From: Nannochloris sp. 'desiccata'
Taxonomy: Eukaryota > Chlorophyta > Trebouxiophyceae > Chlorellales > Chlorellaceae
Assembly (NCBI GenBank): GCA_019044685.2
Contig: JAGTXX020000013.1
Span: 1-64,000 of the forward strand
Direction: 5' to 3'
Length of the DNA stretch: 64,000 bases
Below the pieces are notes generated by a model. That model had not been told where the DNA came from, did no database searches, and was given only the letters and a program-made list of their open reading frames with translations. The translations under genes and the position numbers were made by a program. Below are positions 9,323-41,362 of this stretch, piece by piece (positions within the stretch are counted from its first letter, which is position 1; the number at the start of each line of letters is the position of its first letter).

Positions 9323-10483
9323 ATGCCTGCACCAGAGCCACCAGATTCATTTCTATCTGACGAGCCTAGGACGCTGTCGTCACAATTAACATCAAATCCA
9401 ATCGTTCTGGGGCTTGATCTAGCCTTCACAGATCAAGCACTGGAAAAGGAATTTATAGAATCACATAATAGATCACAAGTTTTTTACGACGTAAGAGTGG
9501 TCCAATGGTGATTTTTAGTTCGTCACATTTCCTTCTCTCTCAATTTTTGGCCCCCGCCCCTTGCTTATTTTGTATTTATTTCTTCTTCATCTTCCGAATT
9601 ACATATGCAGCTCGTATTGGCAGTGGGCATTCGTGCTGTGGGGTGGATTGGAACTGCACTAAAAACTTATCTACGTGGGAACACTCAGACAGCAATTTAT
9701 TTCCTTTGCTCTTGCATGCCTTCAGGCTTGCTACCGGCTTTTGGCATGTTGCTCAGCTACAAACACTATATTAGCACTTTCAGACCGTTCTGGGTTACTG
9801 CAGCAAACCTAATACAATTCTTACAGGTTGGTAGATTCTACGGCCATCTGTATCCATGCACAGGAAGTGGCTGCGATGAAGCTTTGGTGCCTCGTGCAAA
9901 GGCACTGACAGCTCTGTTCTCTAGCAATGGCGCTATGTTCTTAGTAATGACGGCTTTCATGGGAAATCTAGCGTTTAAATGGATGTTTATCACTCAGTGT
10001 ATCTATTGCTTAGTATTGATTGTCAGTAATCGCAATATATGTTTGAGAGGTCCGGCGTTAAGGGGTGCATATAACTGGATTCATGGTCAACTGGTCAACC
10101 CTTTCTTTTCAACCCTGACACGGAACTTCTGGCCCTCAGCTTCTACTACCAGTCTATATAGTGCAGCTAAGGTAATAGCATCATCTACAGCCCTACACAG
10201 TAAGACTGATTCTACCACCCCTCCTACTGAGCTCTCAGTCGAACGGTGCATTGGGAGCCAAGCAGCGTTTCAACTTATTTTTGGGCTCTGGATTCCCTGT
10301 TGGATCGCTTATGGTAGAGAAGTACAGGCACGCAAGTCATTTTTACGATCTCGCCGTGGAGATTCTGCCTATTCTAACGCAATATTCCCTTCAAAATGGG
10401 AAATGTTCATGTGTGCATGTTTGCCCGCTGTGGCATTCCCCTGGTGTATGTTTATATTGTCTGGGACGCATTTGGAGTATTAA
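9323..10483 (+). CDS. Multipass membrane protein, tandem copy 1
   Basis: Two exons, 9323-9490 and 9611-10483, join in phase 0 (ending VFYD, resuming LVLAVG) and encode 346 residues. I do not recognise the family. The protein starts with a soluble 45-residue N-terminus containing NPIVLGLDLAFTDQALE, then shows about six hydrophobic segments, a CTGSGCDEAL loop with three cysteines in the copy, and a final segment ending SGTHLEY. Two further copies follow head to tail. Copy 1 differs from copies 2 and 3 in its first two thirds but is virtually identical to copy 2 from 10025 onward, including 3' flank. No charged catalytic motif is evident; transporter, channel or structural membrane protein are all possible. 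Confidence 0.75.
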
Positions 10484-10694: not shown

Positions 10695-11852
10695 ATGTCT
10701 ACATCACAGCCTAAAGAATCAGAGCTAGCTGACAAGGCTCGGACCCTGAACTGCTCATCTTCAAATCCAATCGTTTTAGGACTTGATTTAGCCTTCACAG
10801 ATCAAGCGTTGGAGAATGAGTTTATAAAGCAACATAATAGATCCCAAGTGTTTTACGACGTAAGCGTGTCCTCTTTCATTCATTTTTGAGGTTGTACTCC
10901 CAATATTTCCCGCTCCGCCTCTTCATATCTATCACAGTTTAAATAATTCTCAATACTTTCCTCAAATTTTCAAATGCAGCTTCTTTTGGCATTGGGTATT
11001 CGCACATTGGGATGGATTGGAATGGCTCTAAAAGCTCACTTGCGCGGAAACACTCAGACCTCAATTGTTTTTCTATTTACCTGCGTGTCTTCAGGCTTGC
11101 TGCCAGTTTTTGGCATGTTGCTCAGCTACAAACACTACATTAGCACTTTTAGACCGTTCTGGGTTGCCTCGGCAAAGATTGTACAGTTCTTACAATTTTG
11201 CAAATATTATGACCATCTGTATCCATGCACAGGAAGTGGCTGCGATGAAGCCTTGGTGCCTCGTGCAAAGGCACTGACAGCTCTGTTCTCTAGCAATGGC
11301 GCTATGCTCTTAGTAATGACAGTATTTATGGGCAGCCTCACGTTTAAATGGATGTTTCTTACGCAGTGTATTTACTCCTTAATATTCATCGTGAGTAATC
11401 GCAATATATGTTTGAGAGGTCCGGCGTTAAGGGGCGCATATAACTGGATTCATGGTCAATTGGTCAACCCTTTCTTTTCAACCCTGACACGGAACTTCTG
11501 GCCCTCAGCTTCTACTACCAGTCTATATAGTGCAGCTAAGGTAATAGCATCATCTACAGCCCTACACAGTAAGACTGATTCTACCACCCCTCCTACTGAG
11601 CTCTCAGTCGAACGGTGCATTGGGAGCCAAGCAGCGTTTCAACTTATTTTTGGGCTCTGGATTCCCTGTTGGATCGCTTATGGTAGAGAAGTACAGGCAC
11701 GCAAGTCATTTTTACGATCTCGCCGTGGAGATTCTGCCTATTCTAACGCAATATTCCCTTCAAAATGGGAAATGTTCATGTGTGCATGTTTGCCCGCTGT
11801 GGCATTCCCCTGGTGTATGTTTATATTGTCTGGGACGCATTTGGAGTATTAA
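10695..11852 (+). CDS. Multipass membrane protein, tandem copy 2 (hybrid)
   Basis: Exons 10695-10859 and 10980-11852 encode 345 residues of the same unrecognised membrane family as its neighbours. The 5' part, including N-terminus and intron, matches copy 3; the 3' part, including the CACLPAVAFPW ending and downstream flank, matches copy 1. This is the expected product of unequal crossing over between copies 1 and 3, with the exchange between 11461 and 11636. The frame is intact through the exchange, so the hybrid is probably functional. Hydrophobic segments and the CTGSGCDEAL loop are as in copy 1. Confidence 0.78.
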
Positions 11853-12063: not shown

Positions 12064-13224
12064 ATGTCTACATCACAGCCTAAAGAATCAGAGCTAGCTG
12101 ACAAGGCTCGGACCCTGAACTGCTCATCTTCAAATCCAATCGTTTTAGGACTTGATTTAGCCTTCACAGATCAAGCGTTGGAGAATGAGTTTATAAAGCA
12201 ACATAATAGATCCCAAGTGTTTTACGACGTAAGCGTGTCCTCTTTCATTCATTTTTGAGGTTGTACTCCCAATATTTCCCGCTCCGCCTCTTCATATCTA
12301 TCACAGTTTAAATAATTCTCAATACTTTCCTCAAATTTTCAAATGCAGCTTCTTTTGGCATTGGGTATTCGCACATTGGGATGGATTGGAATGGCTCTAA
12401 AAGCTCACTTGCGCGGAAACACTCAGACCTCAATTGTTTTTCTATTTACCTGCGTGTCTTCAGGCTTGCTGCCAGTTTTTGGCATGTTGCTCAGCTACAA
12501 ACACTACATTAGCACTTTTAGACCGTTCTGGGTTGCCTCGGCAAAGATTGTACAGTTCTTACAATTTTGCAAATATTATGACCATCTGTATCCATGCACA
12601 GGAAGTGGCTGCGATGAAGCCTTGGTGCCTCGTGCAAAGGCACTGACAGCTCTGTTCTCTAGCAATGGCGCTATGCTCTTAGTAATGACAGTATTTATGG
12701 GCAGCCTCACGTTTAAATGGATGTTTCTTACGCAGTGTATTTACTCCTTAATATTCATCGTGAGTAATCGCAATATATGTTTGAGAGGTCCGGCGTTAAG
12801 GGGCGCATATAACTGGATTCATGGTCAATTGGTCAACCCTTTCTTTTCAACCCTGACACGGAACTTCTGGCCCTCAGCTTCTACTACCAGTCTATATAGT
12901 GCAGCTAAGGTAATAGCATCATCTACAGCCCTACACAGTAAGACTGATTCTACCACCCCTCCTACTGAGCTCTCAGTCGAACGGTGCATTGGGAGCCAAG
13001 CAGCGCTTCAACTTATTTTTGGGCTCTGGATTCCCTGTTGGATCGCTTATGGTAGAGAAGTACAGGCACGCAAGTCATTTTTACGATCTCGCCGTGGAGA
13101 TTCTGCCTATTCTAACGCAATATTCCCTTCAAAATGGGAAATGTTCATGTTTGCCTTGCCTGCTGCAGCTGTTACCTTTCCATGGTGGATGCTTATATCG
13201 TCTGGGACGCATTTGGAGTACTAA
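12064..13224 (+). CDS. Multipass membrane protein, tandem copy 3
   Basis: Exons 12064-12228 and 12349-13224 encode 346 residues. It shares the N-terminus, intron and middle with copy 2 but ends differently, with FALPAAAVTFPWWMLIS in place of the CACLPAVAFPW form, and has its own 3' flank. It is therefore best read as the second ancestral member of the pair, with copy 1 the other. The promoter spacer (11853-12063) is the same as that of copy 2, so copies 2 and 3 should be regulated alike. Function unknown. Confidence 0.77.
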
Positions 13225-29213: not shown

Positions 29214-30328
29214 ATGACTCAGTTCGATACCTCAGTATTCACCAACTGGGCCAAGGCGACCACTCCTAAGTATACCGAGAGGAAGTTGAACCTCCGTATG
29301 GTCATGGCCGAGTTTGTCGGTGAGTTTCGACACTTTATTGCTACTCTTTTGATAATTGGCTTGTCTAGGGGGGCGAGAGTGCAGGGAGGCCAGTTGGCTC
29401 CAGCCTTCTGCCTCTGCAATGGCATGGCGATTAACCTCTGAGTAAATTGCAATGAATTATATTGTCTAATTTTTCCTTCAAAAACTTTCCAGGCATGATG
29501 TTCTTTGTGTTCATTGGTTGCGGCACCGCCGTAGGTTTTTCTTCCCTCCGTCCCAGTGCGTACGCTGATGGTGCTGCCGACCAAGTCACCAACGATACTA
29601 ACACTGCCATTAGCAGGCAGACTTCCGAGTTGTCTGACGTCATTGTCATCAACTCCAGTTTTGGTGTCAACACTGCCTTCGCTTTCGGTATGGCCATCAT
29701 GGTTCTCGCCTACTCTATTGGCCACGTCTCTGGATGCCACTTGAACCCCGCTGTTACTCTCTCCCTCTTCTTATCTGGACACTGCAACTTCATCCAAGGC
29801 GTCGCCAACGTTTGTGCCCAAGTTGTTGGTTCTATCCTTGGCGCCTCTTTCCTCTACGGCATGGTTCCCAACTCCAGCGAGAGTTCCCTCGGATCTAACG
29901 CTGTCTCCCCTGGTTTCTCCTCTGGCGAGGCCCTCCTTGGTGAAGTTGTCATGACTGGATTCCTTTGCTTTGTTGTGCACATGTGTGTCGCTAAGGAGTC
30001 TAACAATACTGGAATCGCCCCTATGGCTCCCTTGGCTATTGGCTTTGCTGTCTTCATTGGGCACACTGTGTTGATCCCTGTCGATGGTTGTTCTATCAAC
30101 CCCGCCCGTTCTCTCGGGCCTGCTATTGTCTCTGGTAGCTGGTCAGGCTTCTGGATATTTATTGCCGGTCCTTTCGTCGGTTCCTTCTTCGGCGTCTTTT
30201 TCTGGACCTTGGTCTCGTTTGCCTGGGACAAGGAGAACGCTGTGACTCCCTTACCCCCTCGCGCTCAGACTCCCATCGTCACCCCTGACGTAAAGCCTGT
30301 GGGCATCTCTGTCGACGGCGTCTTGTGA
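29214..30328 (+). CDS. Aquaporin (MIP family), tandem copy 1
   Basis: Exons 29214-29319 and 29493-30328, phase 1, encode 313 residues. The two pore motifs are NPA at residues 120-122 (HLNPAVT) and NPA at 238-240 followed by Arg241 (SINPARS), as in orthodox water channels and glycerol facilitators. Six membrane segments and two half-helices can be traced. A hydrophilic Asn/Ser/Thr-rich loop of about 30 residues after the first segment (residues 55-87) is longer than usual. The GCSINPARSLGPAI ending resembles plasma-membrane-type plant aquaporins, but the family is deep in algae and the substrate (water, glycerol, other small solute) cannot be assigned. Codons are strongly C-ending, suggesting high expression. 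Confidence 0.9.
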
Positions 30329-31504: not shown

Positions 31505-32619
31505 ATGAGTCAGTTCGATACCTCTGTTTTTAGCACATGGGCTAAGGAAGCTATTCCTAAGTACACTGAGAGGAAGCTAAACCTCCGCATGGTCATGGCT
31601 GAATTTTTCGGTGAGTTTCGGCACTTTCTGGTTGTGTCTTGCAGGCCAGCAGCACCGCTGCCTGCAAGCTGTAACTGGAAGCATTGCTGTTCAGCAAAAA
31701 TCATCTGCCTCCCCAGCGCATGCCAATAATAAAATAACTAAGACACAAACACGTACAAATTGTTATTCTTAAATCTCATTCTTCCTTCAAAAACTTTCCA
31801 GGCATGATGTTCTTTGTGTTCATTGGTTGCGGGACCGCGGTTGGCTTCAGTTCACTGCGCTCCAATGCTTTTGCTGAAGACGCCAATGATGCTGTTACCC
31901 CAGATACGAATACCTTAATCAAAGAGTTGTCTGACGTCATTGTCACCAACTCCAGTTTCGGTGTCAACACTGCCTTCGCTTTCGGTATGGCCATCATGGT
32001 TCTCGCCTACTCTATTGGCCACGTCTCTGGATGCCACTTGAACCCCGCTGTTACTCTCTCCCTCTTCTTATCTGGACACTGCAACTTCATCCAAGGCGTC
32101 GCCAACGTTTGTGCCCAAGTTGTTGGTTCTATCCTTGGCGCCTCTTTCCTCTACGGCATGGTTCCCAACTCCAGCGAGAGTTCCCTCGGATCTAACGCTG
32201 TCTCCCCTGGTTTCTCCTCTGGCGAGGCCCTCCTTGGTGAAGTTGTCATGACTGGATTCCTTTGCTATGTCGTTCACATGTGCTGCGCTGACCCCACAAA
32301 CACCACAATCTCTCCCATGGGTCCCTTGGCTATTGGCTTTGCTGTCTTCCTTGGGCACGCTGTGCTGATCCCTGTCGATGGTTGTTCTATCAACCCCGCC
32401 CGTTCTCTCGGACCTGCTATCATCTCTGGCACTTGGTCAAGCTTTTGGGTGTTCATTGTCGGCCCTTTCATCGGTTCCTTCTTGGGCGTCTTTGTCTGGC
32501 TGTTAACCTCAAAGGGTTGGGATAGGGAGAATGCTGTGACCCCCCTTGCCCCTCGTGGCTCCGCACCTGTCGATATTACTCCTGACATCAAGTTGACAGG
32601 TCCTGTCGATGAGGTTTAA
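31505..32619 (+). CDS. Aquaporin (MIP family), tandem copy 2
   Basis: Exons 31505-31610 and 31802-32619, with the intron at the same codon and phase as copy 1, encode 307 residues. Both NPA motifs and the selectivity-filter Arg are present. A 307-bp tract, 31960-32266, is identical to 29663-29969 of copy 1, while the sequences on both sides differ at many synonymous and replacement sites. The N-terminal extracellular or lumenal loop and the C-terminus differ most, so the two channels may differ in regulation rather than pore. The intron 3' end (CTTCAAAAACTTTCCAG) is also shared. Confidence 0.9.
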
Positions 32620-35414: not shown

Positions 35415-38400
35415 TTAACTTCTCGGTGGCCACTCTGCAAATGGATTGCTACTAGGTGGAGCAGACGCGGGAGGAGCGGTTGCCATTGACTCCCATCCTG
35501 AAGCCGTATACTGTAGTTGCTGCCGTCTCTGCTCTTCAAGAGATGCTTGTATAGCTGCATTCAACTCAGCATCATCACTACTCATTTCTTGTGAAGCAAC
35601 AGCACCGCTACTACGTCTTCTCTGCTCTTCAGCTAACGACGCTTCCATCGCTGCTGTGAGCTCAGCGTCTTCATTCGTACTCCTGTCTGTGGGAATAGGA
35701 ACTGAACCTTGATAAGAAGCAACGTGGTGTTGTTGGTGTTGAGCATTGGATGCAGCAAGAGCAAGAGCGAGTTCTTGTGCTTCAATTGGGTCATCAGGGA
35801 TTTGGATATGACCATTAGAGGTAGTACTACTAGTCCTTCCATTGCCATTAGAATGACCATTTAAGTAGCCATTTTGATAGCTAGTACCGTTCATATACAC
35901 AGGGGGAGGCGCAGATCCATAGCTATTCCAACCATTAGCATGGCTATTCGTACCATTAGCTACTGGATAACCCCCTGGATACCGCCCTGGATACCCCCCA
36001 TCTCCATTGCTACTAGCGATCACGCCATTCGGCAGAGAATTGTTTTTATTTTGATACTTTTTAGAGCAGCAACAGCTCCATAACATAGCCAACAATGCAA
36101 TACCGATTACCACACTTCCAACGATAATAGCAATTAATGCCCAAGTAGGTAGCCCACTCGAAACACCTTCCATTTTAAACGCAATTGGTGGTGTGGTAGG
36201 ATCCCCGAGGTTACCAGAAGCATCAACACCTCGAGCCTGGAATACATACGCACCAGAACCAAGACCATTATACGTACACTCGGAAGTGCAATTCGTCCAT
36301 TCATTCAAATCACCACGGCCAAGCTCGACAGTATCGTCGTTGGAACGAGGTGTTGCCATTATGGTATTCTTCATTCTGATAATCGCCGGTACCGCACCCC
36401 CACTGGTGGCAACACCTTGTGAACTGTCAGAAGTGGGTGATAAACTAGTAAACTCATCGTCAGAGAGAGGTTTCAATAAGCCTTGCCACTGAACAGGTGA
36501 CCCTGCGCCAGGGTTGTTCTTTTCAGTGGTGTCACTAAGTGAAAATACAATTCGACCACCTGGCGTAATGACCCCGGCTTTGGGGGCGTTTGAAATAGCT
36601 GTAATAGGAGCCACAGTATCGACCCACACATCCATCTCACTGGGTTTAGAAGCTTGATCTGCATTATCATATGCTATGACACTTGCTATCCAATACCCCT
36701 CGACTAGTCCATTAAAAATAAATGGAGAAGTACACGCCTGCCAAGTAAATCTGGGGTCATTTGGATCAATTTTATCTTGAAATGAAGAAGCTAAAACAGC
36801 AGGACGGACACGACACGTGACATTTTTAATGCCTGAACCAGCTATACCATCACTGGCAGCAAAGGTAATTCTCACAGCCTTGTTATCCTGAGTGACCACG
36901 GCATTGGCGGTGACATTAGGGGGGGTCACGTCAACTATAAATGCAGCAATAAAGGGAGAGCCTACATTACCCACTGCATCTGATGGAGTCACTGAGAAAT
37001 TATAGTGTCCCCCAGTCAAATTTGTCAGCTGTACAGGGCTTGCACAGGGTGTGAATGGGATTGAATCAGACGGAACGTCTCTTGCATCGAGGTTGCATAT
37101 TGCCGTTGAACCTTCTTCACTCAGAGAAAATTCAAAAGTGACTGTGGTATCGCTGACAGCACGGCCACCAGATGGTCCACTAGTTAAATTCACTGTAGGT
37201 GGCGTAGAATCTACATTGAAAGTAGAGACCGCCCAGGTACTCGGCAAGACACCTCCAAGTTGTTGAGGAGCAGATGCATCGCCAACGACTCGTGCTGCAA
37301 ATAAGTAATCACCATCACTCGGCTGGCCATACGATACAGAAGTAGAGCACGATGACCATTCTGATGGGATAGTTCCAGCAGCGCCACCAGCTCCAATTTC
37401 TACTAAAGAACATTCTGTAGCAGCACCACCACCACCGAGCGTCACTAAAGAAAATTCAACATCTCTCTGTGGTATTCTGAGAATTGGACCACTCGTGACA
37501 CGGACAGAAGGTCCTGCGGCATAATTTTCTACATTCCAAGAAGCACCGACGGGTTGGGCTTTGTTTCCAGCTGCGTCTGTCGCTTCTACTGCAAAGGTCC
37601 ACTGCCCAGGCAGCAACCACGCCAGTGTCTGTGGAGACGTACAGTTGTAAAGTACATCCGGCTCTACTGGAATGGCTACAGAGGTACCTGAAACGAGATC
37701 CCCTTGTTGTGAAGAAGCACCCTGAACACTCACACGACATGTATATGATACAGGTGTGGTGTCATTTGCACCAAAGGTCATTTTCGCAGTAGCAGCAGAG
37801 GTCGTTGCGGGAACATCTCCTTGGAGAGACACAACAGGTGGTACTGTATCTTTAGTGAAGACAACCGAAGAATCAATCTTCTCACCAGATGCGCGTACAC
37901 TAAATGCGTACGTTCCATCAGGGAGGTTATCATAGATAGCAGGGGAAGTACAAGCAGCCCAGTCAGCTGTGCCAGGCGCACCAATGCCACCGGTCCCATC
38001 AGCTAATTTACATTCGTACGCAACACCTGTACTACCACCTGATGTCGTACCGAGATCAAACGACACTCTCTTGGCATTTGTCACACCTGTAGGGCCAGAT
38101 GTGATCGTGGCTACAACAACGGCACACTCTGCTCCTGCATTGCCTGCAGCACTTGGCGGTGTGAGCACACCCGCAAAATCACCATTAACCACTAAAGCGT
38201 ACGGCTGAGAACCTGAAAATGCTTGAATAGATGACCCACGTACTTCTACAGATACACGGCCAGCAGGCACAGCAGGTATCGTCACTTGTTCGATATTATT
38301 TGCCCTATCAGCAACCTTTGAATCTTCCACACCACCGCCATTACCCAACAATGGCTGTCCATTTAATCCCTCAGCGCGAACCACTAAATCCAAATCATTC

Positions 38401-41362
38401 ACTAAAGACACTGCAGCACTTGGTTCTCCAGGGTAATCAGTCCATACTAAAGTAACAGTCAATGGCCCACCATTAGCAGTAATGCAGTACTGATGAACGT
38501 CTCCAGTATTAATCGGAACGCTGTCCAATAAAGCTAATTTTTTAGGGGAATAAGGATTATTTTGTAAAAATAGTGAATTTCCTAAGAATACACGACCAAA
38601 ACCTTGTCTAAATGATGGCGTAGGGTCTATTGGCAGCCCGGTATCTGCTTCATAGCCATCCAACTGTGCAGCGCCACTGATCATGACCGCTTTTACTAGA
38701 GCTGATGTAGGATCAAACTTGTCTGCTGGGTTTGCAGCACCAGATGGGAAGAATCCATCTAAAAAGTACTGACGAATGAGTACTGCAGCTCCAGCTACTA
38801 CCGGAGTTGCCATGGAAGTACCTCCATACGTAGACACATCGCATTTGTCAGCGGAATTGGCAGAAGCAGAGGTAATAGTGCCAGGAGCGACTATATCTGG
38901 TTTAATACGTTTATCACGGCCTACAGGACCTTGAGAAGAGAACGATGCCAAGTTTTCAAAGCCAAAATCTGGTTCTATTGCATCACTAAATGAAATGTCA
39001 ATGCCGCGGCCCGTGCTCAACACCGCCAATAACTTTTGACCTAGGCGGCGAGGCATAGTGGCTGTGGGTATAAGACCACTGACACTACCAGAAGCACCAC
39101 CACCACCTGTAGCTACGAAATATGCAGCTGCTTGATCATCAAAGACCAAAGCGCCAGCAGCACCAGCAGCTTGTGCCGCTTGTGCTTTTTCTACAAAAGT
39201 ACAATTACCACGTTCCATCAGAGCAATACCACCTGCCAGAGCTGCAGCGTTAGTAAGCGGACTACATGCTGACATTGGACTTGTTACTACTAACTTGAAT
39301 ACTTGGTTCCCAAACGTGCTAAAACTGTTGCTAAAATCAGATTGCAACACACGGAAATTTAAAGCAAAGTTGGGGCCAAGAGCTGCCTTTGCTGCCCAAA
39401 CTTTACCCACATAATCGCCTTTAACAGCAGATTCCGCTGATGTCTGAGTCGCACCTGCAGCGAGACAATTCTTACTGGTTGCGGGAGAGTTCACAGTAGT
39501 GTCTCCTCTTAGACCAACCTGAGTACTTTTATCGCCATCATTGCCAGCGGGAAAGACCGGCAGAAAGGTGGGATTCTTCCAGCAATACGAATCTACTTGT
39601 GCTGCTTCATTATCATACATAATTGACGTAGATCCCCATGAATCTGAGTGCACTCTTGCACCTACAGCTGTAGTATAAGGGAAATAATCATTCACGAGAT
39701 CGTAGGGAGTTAAGATGGCATCTCCATCCGCAGCAGAAGATAAATCTATAAAGGCGATTTTCGCAGCAGGTGCCATACCCGCACCTAACCCAGCACCATT
39801 TTCTTCAAGGGTAGTTCCGTAGGGTATACCAGCGATTGTACCAGCAGTGTGCGTTCCATGTCCATTGGCGTCTGTAAAATCAGCAAAGGCTCTATATAAT
39901 CTAATTTTACGATGCGTTTCAGATTGGAAAGTACGAGCACGACTGACAATGGAGATGCTTGATGCCCAGTCAACAGTAGGATCTACAAAGAAACAGTGTT
40001 GGAAATCTAGTCCTGAATCTCCTTGGCCGACGACTTGATTTTGTCCTTGAATGCCAGCTGCCCAAATTGGGTGGAGAGAAGGGTCTAAGCCATTACTACC
40101 ACGACCAGATGTGAGTGCGGGGCGGGCAGATTGTATAATCACAGATGCTTGTCTATTCTTCAAGTAAATACGGGGTAGAGGGGACACCCATCGAACAGCT
40201 GGTCGCTCTGCCAACCACTCAATAACGTCCTGCACCTGAGATGGTGGTGCAAACACAACTACGGAATTTGGTCCAGCATTGAGTACTTCTATTGTATTTC
40301 CAAAACTACTCTTCAAAAGAGGAGCCCAATCTGATACAGCTGCTGTGCCTGCTGTGTAGCTTTCTTGCTCTTTCAAGACTCGTCGGATTCGGAGAGAGTG
40401 AGCTGCTGCTTCGGGGTGGTAGCTAGGCAACGGCTGGGGGTTGTGTGCAGAAGGGAATTGCACACGAATACCAATTTGAGGCCATTGTCCTGGTAGGTGT
40501 CGTACTTGAACAGGCAGTTCAGCCAGCACAGATGCAGCCAGGGCCTGTGCCTCTACGGTTGCATTCACAACACCAGCACCAGTGATTTTAATTGTAAAGC
40601 CTCCAGTACTAGTTGATGTACGACTAGGCATTGCTGCTTCTATTTGGCCTATTAATTCCTGCCATTCAGGTGCTATTTTATGAGCAGGCTCGTGATATCC
40701 AGACCACATGACCAAACTATGATTGGCAGCGGCGGATAAAGATTCAGGTGAACCAACTACAGCCCATGTGTTTTCAGGTAAATACCCCATCACACGTGCA
40801 CCACTGCTCTCTATATGATCTAATAGCTGGTGTCGTTGGGTGTGATCTAATCCATGTGGATGAGATACGAGAGCTTGTCGAGCGCCACGCAAAATGCCCC
40901 AGGACGGGTGGTCAGTGTGGCAGTCATGGTGAAGTAAACGACGCCGTATATTCGATGCGTCCAATCTGCAGATAGGGACAAAAAGATACATACGTGAGAA
41001 AGGAAAGCAGTTAATAGGCTTTTCAAATAAAATGTATTTTATTTTATGACGACCCGGTATCAAGTTGCATCCTCTCAACTGCCAAGCTGTTGAGGACAAA
41101 AACAGTGCATGCGGAGCCACAATATTGTGCTTATCCCATTAATGCATCAGTATAAGGCCATATGGTTGAAATTAACATGCAAGACGCACCCTTTTGCTGC
41201 AAATCTTGTATGGATTGCTCCAGTTCTTAGGTGAACTACTGGCCATTCGCTGTCCAAGGCAGCGCAAGGTCGAATGTAGCCCAATATTACTATCGCTGAG
41301 AGCGCAAAGAATGCATATGAGCTTCTTAGTAGCCTGCGCGAGTTACTTTTTCGACAATTCAT
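35415..41362 (-). CDS. Transmembrane subtilisin-like protease with PPxY/UIM/NPF tail
   Basis: Exon 1 41362-41190 and exon 2 40965-35415 join in phase 2 to give 1907 residues. Exon 1 encodes a signal peptide (YAFFALSAIVILGYI then ALDSE). The S8 catalytic triad is complete: Asp in GQGDSGLDF, His in GHGTHTAG, Ser in GTSMATP, with the oxyanion Asn in FPAGNDGD. A PA-type insert (ALMERGNCTFVEKAQ) sits between His and Ser. About 600 residues of repeated beta-sandwich-like modules follow, each with C...CTSP...L.DG.Y.F.V.A.D..GN. A membrane helix (36078-36149) precedes a CCC cluster and a cytoplasmic tail of about 213 residues holding PPVY, one weak and two strong ubiquitin-interacting motifs, and NPF. 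Related algal subtilases act in cell-wall release; this tail points to regulated endocytosis. Confidence 0.88.
35439..35447 (-). other. NPF motif in subtilase tail
   Basis: Asn-Pro-Phe ten residues from the C-terminus (SSNPFAEW). NPF binds EH domains of endocytic adaptors such as Eps15. Confidence 0.6.
35526..35576 (-). other. Ubiquitin-interacting motif 2 in subtilase tail
   Basis: SDDAELNAAIQASLEEQ fits the UIM pattern of acidic patch, hydrophobic, Ala, Ser, acidic at every fixed position. Confidence 0.75.
35625..35678 (-). other. Ubiquitin-interacting motif 1 in subtilase tail
   Basis: NEDAELTAAMEASLAEEQ fits the UIM pattern at every fixed position. A weaker third copy (IEAQELALALAASNAQ) lies upstream at about 35739-35792. 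Confidence 0.75.

Follow-up and report, generated by a model that had tools for sequence, protein, structure and literature searches.

What does a membrane subtilase do with a tail that carries motifs of ubiquitin recognition and endocytosis? The question is raised by a gene of the green alga Nannochloris sp. 'desiccata', found in a window of 64,000 nucleotides (the whole stretch of DNA analysed here). A sequence-only reading had taken the tail for an epsin-like endocytic kit, by which a self-contained sheddase or receptor would set its own surface level through ubiquitin-driven uptake. The gene, its homologues and the tail motifs are considered in turn below, and the possible functions are weighed against them.

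Gene structure and layout of the protein

The gene lies on the minus strand, and its product after splicing has 1907 aa. Protease and tail had been described as the product of one open frame. This is true of the frame 35415-41120, which is open over 1901 codons on the minus strand, but the whole gene also needs a spliced 5' exon that supplies the signal peptide. The features are as follows.

41190..41362, minus strand: exon 1, start codon and signal peptide (from translation; joined to exon 2)
40966..41189, minus strand: intron of 224 bases, GT...AG (from comparison of spliced models)
35415..40965, minus strand: exon 2, remainder of the protein through the stop codon (open frame)
38595..40046, minus strand: peptidase S8 domain with inserted PA (Pfam PF00082, E 2.8e-34; residues 359-842)
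40014-40025, minus strand: S8 catalytic D motif, QGDS (motif coordinates)
39846-39863, minus strand: S8 catalytic H motif, GHGTHT (motif coordinates)
39537-39551, minus strand: S8 oxyanion N motif, PAGND (motif coordinates)
39030..39293, minus strand: PA domain within S8 (Pfam PF02225, E 6.2e-14; residues 610-697)
38808-38822, minus strand: S8 catalytic S motif, GTSMA (motif coordinates)
36186..38123, minus strand: Ig-like repeat region (Pfam Big_13, Y_Y_Y and Ig_J; boundaries approximate, Ig_J slightly below cut-off)
36081..36137, minus strand: membrane helix (hydropathy 2.95; confident helix in the model)
36066..36074, minus strand: CCC at the cytosolic border, candidate palmitoylation site (motif; CC pair at the border in 19/37 homologues)
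35895..35906, minus strand: PPVY (motif)
35736..35792, minus strand: putative UIM 1, weak, with a conserved DPxEAQ at its front (UIM-like segment 35736-35786; pattern; model helix 123-146)
35625..35675, minus strand: putative UIM 2, consensus (pattern; model helix 159-182)
35529..35579, minus strand: putative UIM 3, consensus (pattern; Pfam UIM on the tail under cut-off; model helix 192-220)
35439..35447, minus strand: NPF (motif)

The hydrophobic stretch of the signal peptide, judged by eye, is SYAFFALSAIVILGYIRPCAA. The joined product of both exons is identical to the database protein P0002 at 1906 of 1907 residues, and AAKG-LDASN is read across the intron by both P0002 and the NCBI model P0007. 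The source contig of P0002 has 6,054 bases. Most simply, P0002 would have been read from an assembled transcript, since the initial residues of P0004, from the same source, resemble read-through of the corresponding intron. The public model P0007 (Ndes2526A_g03556) is truncated, with 1300 aa: some internal pieces are missing from it, and so are the helix and tail.

The overall order is thus signal peptide, KP-43-type subtilase with PA insert, Ig-like repeats, one membrane helix, CCC and a tail of 221 aa. None of the four active-site residues (catalytic Asp, His and Ser, oxyanion Asn) varies among 16 aligned sequences. A structure model of residues 329-1105 (mean pLDDT 85.9) has a fold nearest to the KP-43 and SubHal subtilases (1wmd: E 3.8e-30, TM-score 0.81 by target and 0.47 by query). 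The PA part of the model is similar to the PA domain of plant vacuolar sorting receptor 1. KP-43 and SubHal share the S8 fold and a subsequent beta domain with the algal protein, but they are bacterial and lack the PA insert, membrane helix and tail (their solved chains have 434 and 433 residues). Furin and SKI-1/S1P are, like it, type-I membrane subtilases of the secretory pathway; they belong to another S8 subfamily, and we know of no UIM in their tails.

The tail is predicted to be cytosolic and the protease to lie on the opposite side of the membrane, because of the signal peptide and the basic residues on the tail side of the helix (K/R excess on that side in 37/37 homologues). The helix, CCC, PPVY, the one weak and two consensus UIMs and NPF all lie where the sequence-only reading had placed them. 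In a model of helix plus tail, most of the chain is disordered (mean pLDDT 60.7), the exceptions being the membrane helix and three further helices, one over each putative UIM. Among six close homologues, invariant positions make up 28/51 in the UIMs versus 19/154 in the other tail; CCC is invariant at 3/3 positions, APPPVY at 4/6 and SNPFAEW at 5/7.

The window opens contig C13, a contig that duplicates the last part of C6. Both window ends are found in C6, and the 8.7 kb surrounding the protease gene are 99.92% identical between the two. The repeat is probably a leftover second haplotype of a diploid alga. Measured per 2 kb, G+C in the window is 0.40-0.48, which agrees with the 45.0% published for strain UTEX 2526 (PMC12636532). 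A search of the genome for further genes with this tail gave only the duplicate-contig copy, the other three matches having E >= 0.7.

The tail helices as putative UIMs

The consensus of the ubiquitin-interacting motif (UIM) consists of an acidic cluster, a hydrophobic residue and an x-x-Ala-x-x-x-Ser core. The strict pattern applied to the homologues was a hydrophobic residue, xx, Ala, xxx and Ser, and two or more of the preceding five residues had to be acidic. The Nannochloris tail contains three UIM cores, versus 0.03 expected from shuffles, and at least one match to the strict pattern occurs in 31 of 34 homologous tails. Together these 34 tails (5,697 residues) hold 78 matches versus 0.92 expected from shuffles, counted alike with overlaps included. 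Eight of the 78 overlap another in shifted register (in P0010, P0011, P0012, P0014, P0016, P0019, P0020 and P0023), which leaves 70 separate matches; as the homologues are related, the tail counts are not independent. The set of 34 excludes P0002, which is almost the same as P0001, and P0007, P0013, P0015 and P0025, whose last 400 aa contain no helix (four matches occur in P0025 all the same). Three additional homologues with a helix (P0122-P0124) all have matches.

The pattern is rare elsewhere. There were no matches in 34 length-matched stretches N-terminal to the helix, 12 per 54,820 residues in the rest of the 34 homologues, and 65 in 333,819 residues of 227 non-family proteins from the same searches. 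A match within the last 250 aa was found in 7/142 candidates outside the family and treated as background. P0128, outside the family in the tree, has one match that was judged chance because the residue after its Ala is Asp. The invariance of Ala and Ser within the segments is a selection effect, as the segments were chosen by the pattern; the remaining features were not selected. The residue following Ala, which lies outside the search pattern, is I, L, M or V in 75/78 tail matches versus 15/64 background matches.

Profile comparisons point the same way. A profile from 35 tail segments, run against the PDB, retrieved Vps27 (3.5e-7, the top match), ataxin-3, USP25, ZFAND2B, Rpn10, STAM2 and S5a before the first false family, importin-beta, at E 0.12, and a control profile from 29 background segments had no UIM protein among its PDB matches. 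Pfam UIM matched 18/35 tail segments at E up to 0.01 versus 0/29 controls, with UIM 1 by itself giving no match at E 0.01. The complete tail compared with the PDB gave AMP deaminase (E 0.0074) and UMP1 (1.7), both weak and judged chance.

The 17-residue UIM model is weak in whole-genome and whole-protein searches, and for this reason tail-only scans, shuffles and profiles were used. Searched with Pfam UIM, neither the whole genome nor any of 14 control genomes gave a match, and UIM was not among the domains listed in a Pfam scan of the whole protein. The sequence-only reading had pointed to PF02809 as a check on the tail, and the outcome is divided. The Nannochloris sequence stays under the curated cut-off of 21, both as the 246-aa helix-plus-tail (11.2 bits, E 0.37) and as the last 91 aa (18.1 bits, E 0.0022); UIM_2 (PF23625) on the last 91 aa is also below its cut-off of 21 (18.7 bits, E 0.0017). 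Of five homologous tails scanned, however, P0026 and P0027 pass the PF02809 cut-off and P0024 and P0026 that of PF23625, with P0008 and P0036 passing neither. Taken together, counts and profiles indicate that the putative UIMs of the family tails are not a chance resemblance. A further element, DPxEAQ, stands ahead of UIMs (35775-35792 in the window) in 18/37 tails versus 0.04 expected.

Spread and age of the family

The S8 region of 44 rows, which do not include P0023 or the sequences new in a later homologue search, was used for a maximum-likelihood tree with midpoint rooting. The tree contains a clade of 35 rows (support 97/96) that includes Nannochloris, Coccomyxa, Elliptochloris, Myrmecia, Bryopsis, Ulva, Volvox and Astrephomene. 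In this core-chlorophyte clade, C-terminal UIM matches are found in 34/35 rows, the sole exception being Astrephomene P0031, whose record is named partial. A UIM tail on a transmembrane subtilase, predicted to be cytosolic and claimed earlier for the one protein, is therefore kept in green algae. The Cymbomonas rows and Ulva are on long branches, and their placement is unsure. Nannochloris belongs to the Trebouxiophyceae and Bryopsis to the Ulvophyceae, both core chlorophytes; Volvox is a member of the Chlorophyceae, and Cymbomonas of the Pyramimonadophyceae.

UIMs are absent from the tails of both Cymbomonas sequences, of Klebsormidium P0190 and of P0196. The later homologue search listed the best 120 of 288 hits; of 24 tails examined, 12 had a helix and 4 of these UIMs. 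The tails of Auxenochlorella P0191 and also of P0192, P0195 and P0199 bear UIMs, whereas in two S8-PA proteins of Volvox (P0234, P0235) the C-terminal tail has 15 residues and no UIM. Since UIMs occur almost throughout the clade and are absent from Cymbomonas and Klebsormidium, the most likely origin of the array is with the core chlorophytes or early in their history.

The tail of Cymbomonas P0037 has neither UIM nor lysine and carries two C2H2-type fingers with LNLHLD and INVHLD. These might be ubiquitin-binding UBZ fingers. Finger 1 matches ordinary C2H2 fingers, a profile of finger 2 reaches RAD18 at E 0.21 only, behind C2H2 fingers and rubredoxins, and in Pfam the fingers are SUZ12-like, under cut-off.

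The sequence-only reading knew of no described subtilase with such a tail, and none was found in the literature searched here, outside which most subscription papers lie. The main text of a study of Chlamydomonas S8 proteins, which gives 21 of them, one being type I by SMART and an S1P-like one being called type I, does not contain the word 'ubiquitin' (PMC6313938). The family of UIM-tailed subtilases is real and apparently undescribed; its separate parts are of known kinds, and their combination and its conservation appear to be new.

What the tail may do

The uptake proposed earlier would work through ubiquitination of the protease itself, its UIMs and NPF recruiting endocytic adaptors so that its own uptake sets its surface level. 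Coupled monoubiquitination is known for UIM proteins, and EH-domain matches are present in the genome. The motifs themselves speak on both sides: PPxY occurs in 11/37 tails (1.8 expected from shuffles) and NPF in 7/37 (0.27 expected), and the two are largely retained among the six close homologues, but PPxY is missing in 26/37 tails and NPF in 30/37. Being so patchy, they cannot account for a function common to the family; they may matter in the Nannochloris lineage. The epsin comparison stands as far as UIM and NPF occur together in one cytosolic segment, as they are predicted to in the algal tail. It fails in that epsins are peripheral proteins with an ENTH domain, which Pfam scans did not find in the algal protease, and in the low frequency of NPF and PPxY. 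The ENTH loci L007 and L008 of the Nannochloris genome show no UIM in the frames seen, and the same holds for its two VHS loci. L007 (G000:C3:1162300-1162668) combines ENTH, without UIM or NPF, with a zinc finger in one frame; from its motif we take the finger to be ArfGAP-like.

For the ubiquitination step, in which PPxY would recruit a WW-domain ligase, no gene plausibly combining WW and HECT domains was seen among the open frames of the genome, which counts somewhat against self-uptake. There are 5 HECT and 22 WW places (19 over the cut-off), and in the closest pair, 8.4 kb apart, WW lies downstream and is under the cut-off. The WW scores repeat on contig C17, which suggests that this contig is partly redundant with C9 and with itself.

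The lysine content of the tails likewise argues against self-uptake. The 37 tails contain 83 lysines, whereas 215 would be expected if each tail had the lysine share of the rest of its protein; six are lysine-free, five of which bear UIMs. Past the first 15 tail residues, 16/34 tails are without lysine versus 2.1 expected from the ectodomains of the same proteins, and the Nannochloris tail has three lysines, none of them more than 12 residues from the helix. Some UIM tails retain 4-6 lysines (P0010, P0011, P0014, P0016, P0023). Tails without UIMs contain 8 K and 14 R in Klebsormidium P0190, 2 K and 15 R in Rhodomonas P0232, and 3 K and 10 R in P0196, so the contrast between the two kinds of tail is not clean, P0232 and P0196 being lysine-poor too. 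The depletion could in part be an arginine preference of cytosolic tails. Among 209-aa stretches in the long frames of the window, 10/876 are without lysine, two of the ten in the protease frame itself. Long conserved stretches that are free of lysine and retain arginine are described as frequent in proteins of the ubiquitin-proteasome system, where they are proposed to prevent unwanted ubiquitylation (PMC10169902). Uptake through the protease's own ubiquitination, with PPxY and NPF above shuffles and kept in close relatives on one side and lysine-poor tails and no WW-HECT gene seen on the other, is rather doubtful.

The same observations (lysine-poor tails, patchy PPxY and NPF, and no WW-HECT gene seen) incline us, by a narrow preference, towards a type-I membrane subtilase whose predicted cytosolic UIM array recognizes, in trans, ubiquitin attached to other membrane proteins. 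The tail UIMs would bind ubiquitin and hold ubiquitinated membrane proteins of the same membrane, which would thereby be brought to the protease on the other side in a capture resembling that of RHBDL4. In addition or instead, protease and cargo might be carried jointly into multivesicular bodies and the vacuole. PPxY and NPF would be lineage-specific additions that may tune protease traffic. It is tentatively suggested, in a stronger form, that cytosolic ubiquitin selects what is cut across the membrane, the UIM array capturing ubiquitinated membrane proteins and the lumenal subtilase trimming them; this system would have originated in or near the core chlorophytes, and the Cymbomonas zinc-finger tail may do the same job.

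RHBDL4 is a membrane protease with a conserved cytosolic UIM, and the algal subtilase is alike by sequence. The UIM of RHBDL4 raises binding of ubiquitinated TMED7, whose lumenal domain specifies cleavage, and cutting is described in the membrane or the lumenal part (PMC10920636). RHBDL4 differs, however, in its rhomboid fold and in having one UIM plus a p97-binding motif, whereas the algal protein is a type-I S8 subtilase with a UIM array. If reading in trans is right, green algae have a protease family in which ubiquitin recognition in the cytosol is linked to cleavage on the far side of the membrane, a coupling that to our knowledge is otherwise known only from RHBDL4. The UIM sequences are also close to those of ESCRT-0 (Vps27/Hrs and STAM), Vps27 having been the top PDB match, but Vps27/Hrs and STAM are peripheral endosomal proteins with VHS/FYVE domains and no protease.

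An unlikely alternative is that the UIMs merely let the protease travel with ubiquitinated cargo to the vacuole, where it would act as a general protease with no ubiquitin-based choice of substrate. Its PA fold is that of plant vacuolar sorting receptors, but PA domains are common in secreted subtilases. Nothing found here places the protein in the vacuole, and classical sorting signals are not enriched in the tails (dileucine-type in 0/37 versus 2.5 expected, YxxPhi in 15/37 versus 20.5). On the other side, plants and other groups without ESCRT-0 are described as depending on other ubiquitin readers, and in plants TOL proteins and other candidates recognize ubiquitinated membrane cargo (PMC7253699). 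That the helices bind a partner other than ubiquitin, their likeness to UIMs being coincidental, is quite improbable: the Pfam score of the Nannochloris protein is under the cut-off and ubiquitin binding is a sequence prediction, but the tail-segment profile retrieves solved UIMs where the control profile does not, and two of the five homologous tails pass the cut-off of each Pfam model.

If ubiquitin reading in trans is true, algae would have a ubiquitin reader that spans the membrane, and with it a candidate of a new kind for cargo recognition; and if green algae lack ESCRT-0 as plants do, the protease would be a transmembrane reader replacing part of it. The genome of Auxenochlorella, in which one of the UIM-bearing tails was found, is reported to be open to manipulation by homologous recombination (PMC12636532).

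Other frames of the window occur in tandem. Three closely alike, membrane-protein-like frames of 292-293 aa lie at 9605-10483, 10974-11852 and 12343-13224, and the tandem frames 29462-30328 and 31804-32619, presumably aquaporin-like, carry NPA motifs.
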